The translations under genes were made by a program, and so were the position numbers. A model generated the notes under the pieces. That model was not told the DNA's origin, did no database searches, and saw only the letters and a program-made list of their open reading frames with translations. A DNA stretch of 64,000 nucleotides from Synechocystis sp. PCC 7338. Lineage in GTDB: Bacteria > Cyanobacteriota > Cyanobacteriia > Cyanobacteriales > Microcystaceae. The stretch spans positions 1,535,488 to 1,599,487 of the forward strand of contig NZ_CP054306.1 of the NCBI RefSeq assembly GCF_018282115.1. The letters run 5' to 3'. Below are positions 43,517 to 47,149 of the stretch, in pieces. Each line of letters starts with the position of its first letter. Position 1 is the stretch's first letter.

Positions 43517-44704
43517 TTATGCTATGGCCACTGCCCGCAAATTAGTTTTGACCTTTAGTAATAAATCCTGGGGTAAAAAAGGCTTTTGCAGATTATCATT
43601 AACGCCAGACATTTTTGCCTTGATGTTATGGACTAAATTGTCATTCTCCACCATCAACATAATTGGTACCCCCTTGAGTTGGGGAGATTTACGACAAAGG
43701 GAAGCCAACTGATAGCCATCCATTTTTTCCATGTCAGCGTTAATCAAAATTAAATGAGGATTTTGACCTTGGAGGGAAGCCAAAGCCTTAAATGGATCAG
43801 TGATAGTGTTAACTCGATAACCGCTTTTTTCTAAGGTATATTCAACAATTCGTTGGTGAGTTTGATTTTCATCCACACTGACCACCAAAGGACGATTATC
43901 AATGGCAATTTCCTGATATGGGAGCATGGTGATGTCACCCGTCTTGATTAAGTTTCGCATGGCGATCGCCAATTGAAGAGTGCTCAATTTGGTGGCACTG
44001 GCAATGTCATAAAGGCAGTGTAAATCCTCCAAACTCTGCTGAAAAATTTTCCAGAATTCTTCTGTGGTCTCGAAATTAGATCTGGTCAAAATCCCCTGCA
44101 ACTTCCGGACATCCTGCACCAAAGGCCGTTGAAAGGGAGAGTTAATCTCTGAGCGTAGCTCCCACCAGTAGCTCACCTTTTTTTCGATGGGACTCACCGC
44201 CTGCTCCAGATTTAGGTTCAAAAAAAGATGTCTTAATTTGTTGTTAGGATCTAGGCGATACTCGGTTTTGGGTAGGGAAAGGGCCTGGACTAGAGCCTCT
44301 TGGGTAAACTGGGTTAACACTGACCGGGTTTGCTGAAAGGAAAAATATTTTCTTTTCCATAGCTCACAGATATAGTTGTAATCACTGTCCAACTGGGTCG
44401 GTAATTGCAGATGACCCTGCTGGAACAACTTACCCAACATATAATTCAGACGCTTGCCATTACCCACCGCGCTGTTGGCAAAATGTATCTTGCCGTTGCC
44501 CAAGTAAATCTGCCAATCAACAAATTCGTCAAAGGGATTGCGGATAACCAATTGACCAGTGAATTGCTCGGCCATTAACTGCTCCAACAGTTCCCGAGGA
44601 ATTGCCCGTTTAATCTCATTATCTTGAGATTTTGGAAGCCTAGGAAGCGGCAATTGATTAGCCATGGCACGATCCTCGAAAAAGGGCAGGGTCAAAGCGG
44701 TCAT
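43517..44704 (-). CDS. PatA-type response regulator with DUF4388 and a degenerate receiver
   Basis: 395 aa; ATG 44704 or 44665. The N-terminal domain (LLEQLMAEQFTGQLVIRNP...) is the PATAN/DUF4388 region seen in cyanobacterial PatA proteins. The C-terminal 120 residues form a CheY-like receiver: acidic pair in VSVDEN, KPF near the end, but the phosphoacceptor position in LILINADMEKMDG is Asn rather than Asp. Typical PatA receivers carry Asp here. It may therefore not be phosphorylated in the ordinary way. The EAL gene lies upstream on the same strand. Confidence 0.88.
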   Translation of the reverse strand: MTALTLPFFEDRAMANQLPLPRLPKSQDNEIKRAIPRELLEQLMAEQFTGQLVIRNPFDEFVDWQIYLGNGKIHFANSAVGNGKRLNYMLGKLFQQGHLQLPTQLDSDYNYICELWKRKYFSFQQTRSVLTQFTQEALVQALSLPKTEYRLDPNNKLRHLFLNLNLEQAVSPIEKKVSYWWELRSEINSPFQRPLVQDVRKLQGILTRSNFETTEEFWKIFQQSLEDLHCLYDIASATKLSTLQLAIAMRNLIKTGDITMLPYQEIAIDNRPLVVSVDENQTHQRIVEYTLEKSGYRVNTITDPFKALASLQGQNPHLILINADMEKMDGYQLASLCRKSPQLKGVPIMLMVENDNLVHNIKAKMSGVNDNLQKPFLPQDLLLKVKTNLRAVAIA

Positions 44705-44777: not shown

Positions 44778-45686
44778 CTAAGCGGCGATCGCTTTGGTCG
44801 AAGTTCTGGCAGGAGAACAATGGTGGAGATAGTGAGTCATTCTGTCTTCATTGAGGGGACAACTAAAGAAAAAGCCCTGGAGCACATCACACTGCAAAGA
44901 TTGAAGTAAATGGAGTTGGCTTTCCGTTTCCACACCTTCCGCCACCACAATCAAATGCAAACGTTGGCCAAGGTTGATGATGCTTTCGAGGATAACTTCC
45001 GCCTTTTGGTGCATCTCTAGATCCGCTAAAAAAGACTTGTCAATTTTTAGGGTGTGGACAGGTAGTTCCTTCAGCACCGATAGGGAAGAGTAACCAGTAC
45101 CAAAATCATCGATCGCCAAACGCACTCCCAACCGTTGCAAGTCACAAAGAACCCCAATAGTGTGCTGTAAATCTTTAAAAATTAATCCTTCGGTCACCTC
45201 CAACTGCAGTTGGGCTGGGGGCATGGCCGTTTCCTCCAAAATCCGCTGGACTGTCTCGACAAAGTCAGCTTTCTGCAACTGTTGCAAGGATAAATTCACC
45301 CCCAACAAAAAGGGAGGCACCCCCTGGGCCTGCCACATTTTATATTGACGACAAGCCGCTCCCAACACCCATTCGCCAATGGCCGTCACCAGTCCCACTT
45401 CCTCCGCTATGGGAATGAACTCTGTCGGGGAAACACTACCCAACCTATGATCTTGCCAGCGGATCAGGGCCTCTACCCCCACCAAATTAATTCCCTGCCC
45501 ATCCCATTGGGGTTGAAAATCCAGGCTGAAACCACGCTCTGTCACTGCTTTAGTTAGAGCCTGTTTAATATATTGCTTGCGCTCAAAATAATCATTGCTC
45601 TCCTCTGTGGAAGCTGGAGTGGTAATCTCAGGCTGAGAAAAATTATTCTCAGACAAAGACCGGGGAAGGCGTGGAAATATAAACAT
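44778..45686 (-). CDS. Stand-alone EAL-domain cyclic-di-GMP phosphodiesterase
   Basis: 302 aa from ATG 45686; TTG at 45704 would add six residues. EAL domain at about 45-290 with the expected residues of an active enzyme: EALIRW, NLSLQQL, LEVTEG, AIDDFGTGYSS, KIDKSFL, VAEGVETESQ, QGFFFSCPL. There is no GGDEF, PAS or other sensor domain; the first 35 residues are low complexity. It hydrolyses c-di-GMP to pGpG. A tandem TTAAG array lies 128-188 bp upstream of its start and may control it. The PatA-like gene follows 74 bp downstream. Confidence 0.93.
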   Translation of the reverse strand: MFIFPRLPRSLSENNFSQPEITTPASTEESNDYFERKQYIKQALTKAVTERGFSLDFQPQWDGQGINLVGVEALIRWQDHRLGSVSPTEFIPIAEEVGLVTAIGEWVLGAACRQYKMWQAQGVPPFLLGVNLSLQQLQKADFVETVQRILEETAMPPAQLQLEVTEGLIFKDLQHTIGVLCDLQRLGVRLAIDDFGTGYSSLSVLKELPVHTLKIDKSFLADLEMHQKAEVILESIINLGQRLHLIVVAEGVETESQLHLLQSLQCDVLQGFFFSCPLNEDRMTHYLHHCSPARTSTKAIAA

Positions 45687-45813
45687 AGATTTTCCGGGAT
45701 TCAATGGAGATGACTCCGGGGGAGGAGTTTGGCGACTGGCGGACTCTCTGTTGAGTCCTACCTAGGGCCAGGGACAAAGCAGAATCAACACATAGGATTA
45801 ATAAGGAAAAATC

Positions 45814-45873
45814 TTAAGATTTTCTTAAGACTTTACACCAAGATTATTAAGAGATTGTTAAGCCACTGTTAAG
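45814..45873 (-). repeat. Tandem TTAAG array with 11-bp period (OmpR/Pho-box-like operator)
   Basis: TTAAG occurs at 45814, 45825, 45847, 45858 and 45869: all on one 11-bp grid, with only the 45836 slot degenerate. On the minus strand the units read CTTAAC, CTTAAC, CTTAAT, CTTAAG, CTTAAG. The 11-bp direct-repeat spacing is that of OmpR/PhoB-type dimers on DNA, and cyanobacterial Pho boxes are repeats of the type PyTTAAPyPy. The array lies 128-188 bp before the EAL start. The regulator is not identified. Confidence 0.75.
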
Positions 45874-46015
45874 AATTGTAACAGGGTTTCAGGAGGGAGG
45901 CAATCAGCTAATGGATTCAATCCCTTTGCTCAGCTAGAACCTAGGCTTTGTGGATAAATTCAATTAACTGGAGTGGATATTAACTAGCCTGGCGATTGAT
46001 AATCCGTAACATTGA

Positions 46016-46192
46016 GCACGTTTACCTTTTGATGGTGGGACAATATGCACAAAAGATTTGTTGAAGTTGCGTTACTTGCATTTTAAGGTTGACTTTGATA
46101 GCAAAACGCTGACAGGGGTCATTGAAGTCAAAGTTGGAGTGGGCTTGAACCATCCCATTTGTTCGGATAATGGTTTTATGGAGTTGAATTGA
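46016..46192 (+). pseudogene. Short open frame without a start codon, possible gene remnant
   Basis: A plus-strand frame of 58 codons runs to TGA at 46190-46192. It reads LLKLRYLHFKVDFDSKTLTG and IEVKVGVGLNHPICSDNGF, which has the look of a folded domain's end. There is no ATG; a TTG near 46043 could be used. I do not recognise it; a remnant is more likely than a gene. Confidence 0.3.
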
Positions 46193-46228
46193 GTTTATTC
46201 TATTCACGACTGGTAGATATGGTCGGTA

Positions 46229-47149
46229 TCAACTATCACCTTTGATCCATAAATTAGGGGGCAAAGGAGCAGTCAAGATTATGCTCTCTTGGGTACGGGG
46301 ATGGAGAAAACCCAGTTGGTAGCTGTGGAGGGTGTAGCCGCCGTCACTTGGTCGGGCTTTGGCTTGGGGATTGATGGGAAAACCACCGGGGCCGTAGAGG
46401 CGATCGCCAAGCAAAGGGTAGCCCAAGCTGGCCAGATGAATGCGAATTTGGTGGGGTCGGCCTGTGGTAATGGCCACTTCCAACCAGGTTTTTTCGGGGG
46501 AGCGGGCTAAAATGCGGCCGTAACTGTGGGCTGATTTTCCGTAGGCAGTGGCGGCGTAGATGTATCCCAGTTGAGGGTAGGGAATTTTACCAATCGCCTG
46601 ATGACAATCAAATTGTTCCGGTAGGGGGCAGGGACCAATGAGGGTGCGGTAAATTTTGCGGCAAAGATTTTCCCGAAATTGACGACTGAGTTCCCGCCGG
46701 CCCAGGGCAGAACGACCAAGCAACAAAAGCCCCGAAGTGCCGGTACCCAGGCGATGCAGGGGAAACAAGGACTCCTGGGGAAACTGAATTTTTAGTTGTT
46801 CCAGAACTGTGTGGTAAACAAAATCTCCCCCCGGCAGAACCGGTAATCCCACTGGCTTATCAATGGCCCAGAGGTCTTCATCTTGGTACAACACTGGCAA
46901 AGTTAGGGGCACATCCGGCTCAGCCCAGGGCGATCGCCAATAAGTGAGAGTCTGCCCCGCTTGCAAAGGATAGGAGGGATTAACGGTTTTACCATCTACT
47001 TCAATTTGCCCCAGTTCAATGCGTTCTTGCCAAACCTGGCGATCGGAATGGCCATAGCGTTGACTGTAGAAATCCAACACTGTTTGACCCACCACTTTGG
47101 CGTTGATCCGGTCAGTGTAAAGCCAACCTTGATTAAGCTTATTTCCCAA
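46229..47149 (-). CDS. RluA-family pseudouridine synthase-like protein, catalytic Asp replaced
   Basis: 306 aa with a TTG start. An S4-like RNA-binding region (about 25-70: IELGQIEVDGKTV) precedes the RluA core. The signature HRLDxxTSGLLL reads HRLGTGTSGLLL at 132-143, so Gly135 stands where the catalytic Asp is expected. Downstream elements are present (TGRPHQIRIHLASLGYPLLGDRLYG). Whether this family uses another Asp or is inactive cannot be told from the sequence. Apart from the swap it looks full length. Confidence 0.85.
   Translation of the reverse strand: MGNKLNQGWLYTDRINAKVVGQTVLDFYSQRYGHSDRQVWQERIELGQIEVDGKTVNPSYPLQAGQTLTYWRSPWAEPDVPLTLPVLYQDEDLWAIDKPVGLPVLPGGDFVYHTVLEQLKIQFPQESLFPLHRLGTGTSGLLLLGRSALGRRELSRQFRENLCRKIYRTLIGPCPLPEQFDCHQAIGKIPYPQLGYIYAATAYGKSAHSYGRILARSPEKTWLEVAITTGRPHQIRIHLASLGYPLLGDRLYGPGGFPINPQAKARPSDGGYTLHSYQLGFLHPRTQESIILTAPLPPNLWIKGDS

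Follow-up and report, generated by a model that had tools for sequence, protein, structure and literature searches.

What a phased row of short repeats upstream of an EAL-domain gene is for, which regulator would bind it, and in which direction it would act are the questions raised by an intergenic gap at 45705-46228 of the window, the 64,000-nucleotide stretch of Synechocystis sp. PCC 7338 DNA analysed here. This 524-bp gap separates the EAL gene from its upstream neighbour, an RNA pseudouridylate synthase gene identified by domain search (46229..47149, minus strand). The initial annotation described five exact TTAAG cores on a single 11-bp grid, and the window letters match exactly, with cores at 45814, 45825, 45847, 45858 and 45869 and, as also described, a degenerate slot at 45836. 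The array is oriented on the minus strand, as is the EAL gene, and on this strand its units read CTTAA. TTAAG was dropped as a separate plus-strand motif, its reverse complement on the gene strand being the Pho core. Judged by its letters and their conservation, the array is a real, conserved operator-like element of PhoB/OmpR type, for which the function set out below is a proposal.

Sequence, simulation and retention in two relatives together define a six-slot array with an 11-bp period and five CTTAA boxes (45811..45873, minus strand). Box 1 is CTTAACAG (45873-45866), box 2 is CTTAACAA (45862-45855) and box 3 is CTTAATAA (45851-45844), followed by the degenerate slot 4, TGGTGTAA (45840-45833), box 5, CTTAAGAA (45829-45822), and box 6, CTTAAGAT (45818-45811), all read from the window sequence on the minus strand. 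With its spacers, the array reads CTTAACAG tgg CTTAACAA tct CTTAATAA tct TGGTGTAA agt CTTAAGAA aat CTTAAGAT.

The EAL gene (44778..45704, minus strand), defined by its ORF, domain and motifs, starts at TTG 45704 or ATG 45686. Its product contains an EAL domain (E 7.3e-68) with the signature motifs EALIRW, NLS, EVTE, DDFG, KID, EGVE and QG, and the closest sequence with a solved structure is 4rni, which bears the name Motility regulator. The initial annotation spoke of a c-di-GMP phosphodiesterase; the domain and motifs agree with this, and the protein is a predicted phosphodiesterase whose activity is a prediction only. The next gene (43517..44704, minus strand; domain search) encodes DUF4388, which we take to be the PATAN domain, followed by a receiver domain, the architecture of a PATAN-CheY response regulator. 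The 73-bp gap between the two genes suggests that they likely share an operon. A second pair is encoded in the same genome (G000:C1:806000-816000), where EAL and DUF4388-receiver genes are followed by a BLUF gene in the Pix arrangement. The window pair is a paralogue of this Pix pair (EAL 50%, regulator 51%). Gene order suggests slr1594/Rre5 as a putative PCC 6803 counterpart of the window regulator; slr1593, also considered as a counterpart, was unsupported when checked. PixE is reportedly thought to bind the pilus motor PilB1 (PMC7690835). The EAL-regulator gap of the Pix locus is one 11-bp unit longer in the window genome (G000) than in one of its relatives (G001).

Chance alignment of the cores, which had been judged very unlikely, was modelled with 20,000 first-order Markov sequences of the length and composition of the 524-bp gap. 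In none of the 20,000 did four or more TTAA cores share an 11-bp grid, and in 43 exactly three did, while for TTAAG the simulated maximum was two (167 sequences). Comparison of periods 6 to 21 revealed none except 11 that exceeds three TTAA across the whole window, and TTAAGN6TTAAG has four matches there against 0.18 expected. The five-core pattern has a single occurrence in the 3.83-Mb genome (3,832,803 bases in four contigs, the first of 3,704,690) with up to three mismatches allowed, and a reversed-pattern control has none. The many equally good arrays at random sites that the initial annotation would have counted against its reading thus did not turn up in the genome-wide scan. A looser pattern, with only three TTAA spaced by 11 bp, stands out less, occurring at eight genomic places (11 matches per strand versus three per strand in the reversed control). 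Besides the array itself, these comprise two places at PstS-like and porin genes, a pair close to a C39 exporter gene and three elsewhere.

G000 was compared with four further genomes from its genus (G001-G004). Two of the four contain a clear EAL orthologue, with 91% (G001) and 73% (G002) identity, and before each orthologue all five TTAA cores occupy identical slots (111011). The array is therefore present in all three genomes with a clear EAL orthologue, and the absence of conservation in relatives, which had been named as a ground for abandoning the idea, was not observed. Between the window and G002, the array is 0.78-0.85 identical in 60-column windows, compared with 0.34-0.72 for other upstream sequence. 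Ten of the 63 array columns vary among the three genomes, including none of the 20 TTAA columns (P = 0.015) and one of the 25 CTTAA columns. Conservation starts some 10 bp upstream of the array itself, with TGTTACAATT, which is invariant in G000, G001 and G002. In G002 the array, EAL gene and regulator gene occur together, and an 18-kb stretch contains no ORF matching the upstream pseudouridine synthase. A family-wide DNA search of 50 genomes matched seven, the same three over 75-96 bases and four further genomes over 24-31 bases only (E 1.1e-4 to 6.4e-4). G003 and G004 encode more distant EAL-regulator pairs without the array. By BLAST identities rather than a tree, both EAL proteins are nearer to the Pix pair, as is the regulator of G003, while that of G004 is about equally close. 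On these identities, the two pairs were not counted as clear orthologues and were set aside as counter-examples. A second block around AATGTTACGGAT (window 45940-46020, minus strand), upstream of the array, is identical in three genomes.

The spacing had been ascribed to an OmpR/PhoB-type regulator, which is supported by the 11-bp period, an 8-bp box plus a 3-bp spacer. The motif of SphR consists of repeated YTTAAYYW units, usually set 3 bp apart (PMC13226834), and PhoB binding in PCC 6803 requires each of three TTAA cores (PMC11126600). Three tandem TTAA cores, those of boxes 1-3, are present in all three genomes. Compared with YTTAAYYW, CTTAACAG has two mismatches and CTTAACAA and CTTAATAA have one each, a total of four in the 24 positions of boxes 1-3, and boxes 5 and 6 have two each. 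A search for triple YTTAAYYW with at most three mismatches gave no match in the window; the array itself has four. The sequence of boxes 5-6, CTTAAGA, is atypical for Pho: G occupies position 6 in 8 of 15 array boxes versus 1 of 39 Pho boxes, and A occupies position 7 in 13 of 15 versus 7 of 39. The proposed connection to phosphate is supported by the Pho resemblance of boxes 1-3 and weakened by boxes 5-6, and the observation that the cores differ from PyTTAAPyPy proved in part to come from reading the opposite strand, CTTAAGA in boxes 5-6 being a real departure.

Two profiles were used to score the array. With a profile of 21 of the 30 published sites and three boxes, the array ranks first in the window at 17.7, and its counterparts in G001 and G002 score 15.5 and 14.3; simulated maxima are 13.3-17.0 (six runs), true genus sites score 21.3-25.7 and pstS1 scores 15.8. 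Elsewhere in the G002 locus, a site reaches 17.6 and so exceeds the G002 array. With two boxes the array is outside the top six of the window, and with six slots it is third. A genus Pho profile of 39 boxes, with the EAL-array locus left out, gives scores for boxes 1-3 of 26.1, 22.2 and 22.0. True sites, withheld family by family, score 18.5-27.8, and 20 simulations yield no more than 20.2. The core of this profile is partly circular, however, because its pstS2, porin and exporter sites had themselves been picked up with the CTTAA pattern. Boxes 1-3 would appear acceptable as Pho boxes, good in the genus profile and marginal in the published one. In G000, the gap between the EAL gene and pixE contains a Pho-like triple that scores 18.4 with the published profile; it was set aside, as neither G001 nor G002 has a counterpart and it resembles an additional 11-bp unit.

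Three CTTAA at 11 bp occur four times in the window genome and nine times in the five genomes, with none in the reversed control. The nine triples are found at EAL genes (three), OprB-SLH porins (three), PstS-like genes (two) and near a C39-ABC exporter (one); these assignments derive from Pfam for G000 proteins only and from near-identical starts for those of G001 and G002. In PCC 6803, pstS2 is among the published SphR/PhoB targets, and published PhoB targets there include the porin slr1908 and the secretion cluster sll1552/slr1651. We infer that the porin, PstS-like and exporter genes found here are counterparts of these targets. The published PCC 6803 sphX site is also found letter for letter in G002. 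We consider SphR (also named PhoB) the most likely binder of the array, with slightly better than an even chance.

A promoter scan of 45650-46250 revealed four promoter-like sites versus 1.2 expected. One candidate, P1 (45875..45903, minus strand), identified by the scan and the strain motifs, has the form TTGCCT-17-TACAAT with a TG before the -10 (-35 at 45903-45898 and -10 at 45880-45875, both on the minus strand). P1 has nine of 12 consensus matches, with a -10 that is invariant in three genomes and a -35 that varies, and is the sole window match to TTGCC-N17..19-TANAAT (0.81 expected). TANAAT and TTGCCAA are the mapped promoter motifs of PCC 7338, where the median leader is 42 nt (PMC8155712). 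P1 ends 1 bp before box 1, and its spacing predicts a start site at 45867..45870 (minus strand) and a leader of about 182 nt; relative to this start the boxes would lie at about -5 to +58. The top-scoring promoter match in the scan is TTAACA-18-AATAAT (10/12), located inside the array, the -10 of which is lost in G002. The initial annotation had regarded a position within the transcript as evidence against its idea, and the predicted start of P1, the best-conserved candidate, implies exactly that position. An array inside the transcript could still be an operator, though its position would speak for repression, whereas activation is the sign usually assumed.

The boxes of urtA, which is repressed by SphR, are likewise near the -10 (PMC13226834), and it is this similarity together with the position of P1 that leads to a repression reading. 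If SphR is the binder, repression is the somewhat likelier sign, with position leaning only slightly that way, and activation has a little less than an even chance. The 182-nt leader and the second promoter match led us to lower our estimate for repression from a slightly higher one. We therefore propose, as a reading with an even chance of being correct, that the array is a multi-box SphR operator over the start of the EAL-PATAN operon, repressing it on phosphate starvation. RNA polymerase would start at P1, just upstream of the array. During phosphate starvation, phosphorylated SphR would fill the boxes from about -5 to +58 and block initiation or escape. The predicted phosphodiesterase and its PATAN-CheY partner would then fall, and c-di-GMP would tend to rise.

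Alternatively, SphR could activate the operon on phosphate starvation, with the promoter lying within the array or beyond its downstream end, and c-di-GMP would then fall, as it does through RapA; we regard this as rather unlikely. Most Synechocystis Pho genes are activated (PMC13226834), RapA is a Pho-activated phosphodiesterase (PMC3032545), and a shorter leader would suit the strain median. However, no -10 (at least four matches, with A2 and T6 required) follows box 6 in G000 or G001, and G002 has one at offset 21, whereas in sphX and pstS1 the -10 comes 19-20 bp after the last box. A weak -10 is in itself no bar to activation, as the true pstS2 sites also have no clear downstream -10 in two of three genomes; the porin and exporter sites follow no single rule.

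Another binder of the OmpR family is unlikely, whether RpaB acting on the -10 via HLR1 in response to light or redox, or a regulator that prefers CTTAAnA. HLR1 consists of two 8-bp repeats with a 2-bp spacer. An HLR1 (RpaB)-like match with two mismatches was found by motif scan at 45865..45882 (minus strand), and GTTACAATTCTTAACAGT resembles the scpB HLR1, TTACAATAGTTAACAT (PMC6331805). However, the window contains four such matches versus 2.18 expected, so the match is not significant alone and was not adopted as an explanation on that basis; G001 has a third mismatch, and the 11-bp period of the array is that of Pho boxes while that of HLR1 is 10. CTTAAnA is distinct from CTTAAYY, and nine of the 18 CTTAAnA direct repeats in the five genomes are inside the array, but the other nine are equal to noise (eight in the reversed control). 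Ten OmpR-type regulators were compared, using 51 of 54 matches and omitting three weak ones. For eight, a reciprocal best hit exists in each of the four relatives, and none of the ten follows the distribution of the array by occurring in G000, G001 and G002 but not in G003 and G004, which led us to reject a clade-specific OmpR regulator. ManR, for which a motif shared with the mntC promoter would be expected, was also rejected, as no comparable array lies within 500 bp before the matches of three ZnuA-family genes, the candidates for mntC; the ManR motif was not found in the accessible part of PMC7020235. An extension of repression by SphR, in which starvation raises c-di-GMP in this Synechocystis clade by SphR closing the operon and an RpaB-type half site on the -10 adds a light input, such that the promoter weighs phosphate against light for pilus behaviour, is distinctly unlikely.

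An RNA element, with a leader hairpin built from boxes 5-6 and direct repeats of secondary importance, is very improbable and was rejected. The predicted fold of the leader has a z of -3.21 in the window strain, and the box 5-6 hairpin appears in predicted folds of three genomes. However, palindromic cores produce such a hairpin automatically, G002 has lost the inner pairs of this one, the remaining fold is not common to the genomes, an Rfam search gave no match, and boxes 1-3 are left unexplained.

The array shares CTTAA cores, an 8+3 bp period and three tandem boxes with the Pho boxes of PCC 6803 SphR/PhoB, and lies on the gene strand, as in pstS2. Reported Pho sites contain two to four motifs (PMC13226834), whereas the array has five cores in six slots; it also differs in the CTTAAGA of boxes 5-6, in following rather than preceding its promoter candidate, and in being a new target type. 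Boxes close to the -10 are shared with urtA, though those of the array run downstream of it and repression is here only proposed. RapA of Pseudomonas fluorescens (PMC3032545) offers a parallel for Pho control of a c-di-GMP phosphodiesterase, which is proposed here; RapA is activated, whereas the geometry of the array suggests repression, the opposite sign. The PixD-PixE blue-light locus likewise has an EAL gene and then a PATAN-CheY regulator but, unlike the window locus, has the BLUF protein PixD and no conserved array. The operon would be a new target whose array is unusually long, and not a system of a new kind.

A literature search found no paper joining Synechocystis, c-di-GMP, phosphate starvation and the EAL domain. 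Among the broader literature matches listed, judged by title and the start of the abstract, there was no cyanobacterial phosphate-to-c-di-GMP circuit, and c-di-GMP is not mentioned in the main text of the PhoB paper (PMC11126600). If SphR controls the operon, phosphate supply would set the phosphodiesterase and a pilus-regulator-type protein together, linking phosphate supply to cell surface behaviour through c-di-GMP. The five-box row would also be suited to the study of cooperative SphR binding.

Two further features were observed at other sites. Two triple-TTAA arrays lie 2.5 kb apart (G000:C1, about 1462122 and 1464674) near a C39-peptidase ABC exporter gene, and recall the PhoB-controlled sll1552/slr1651 cluster. 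At an OprB-SLH porin gene in three genomes, strong triple Pho-type boxes point away from the porin gene.
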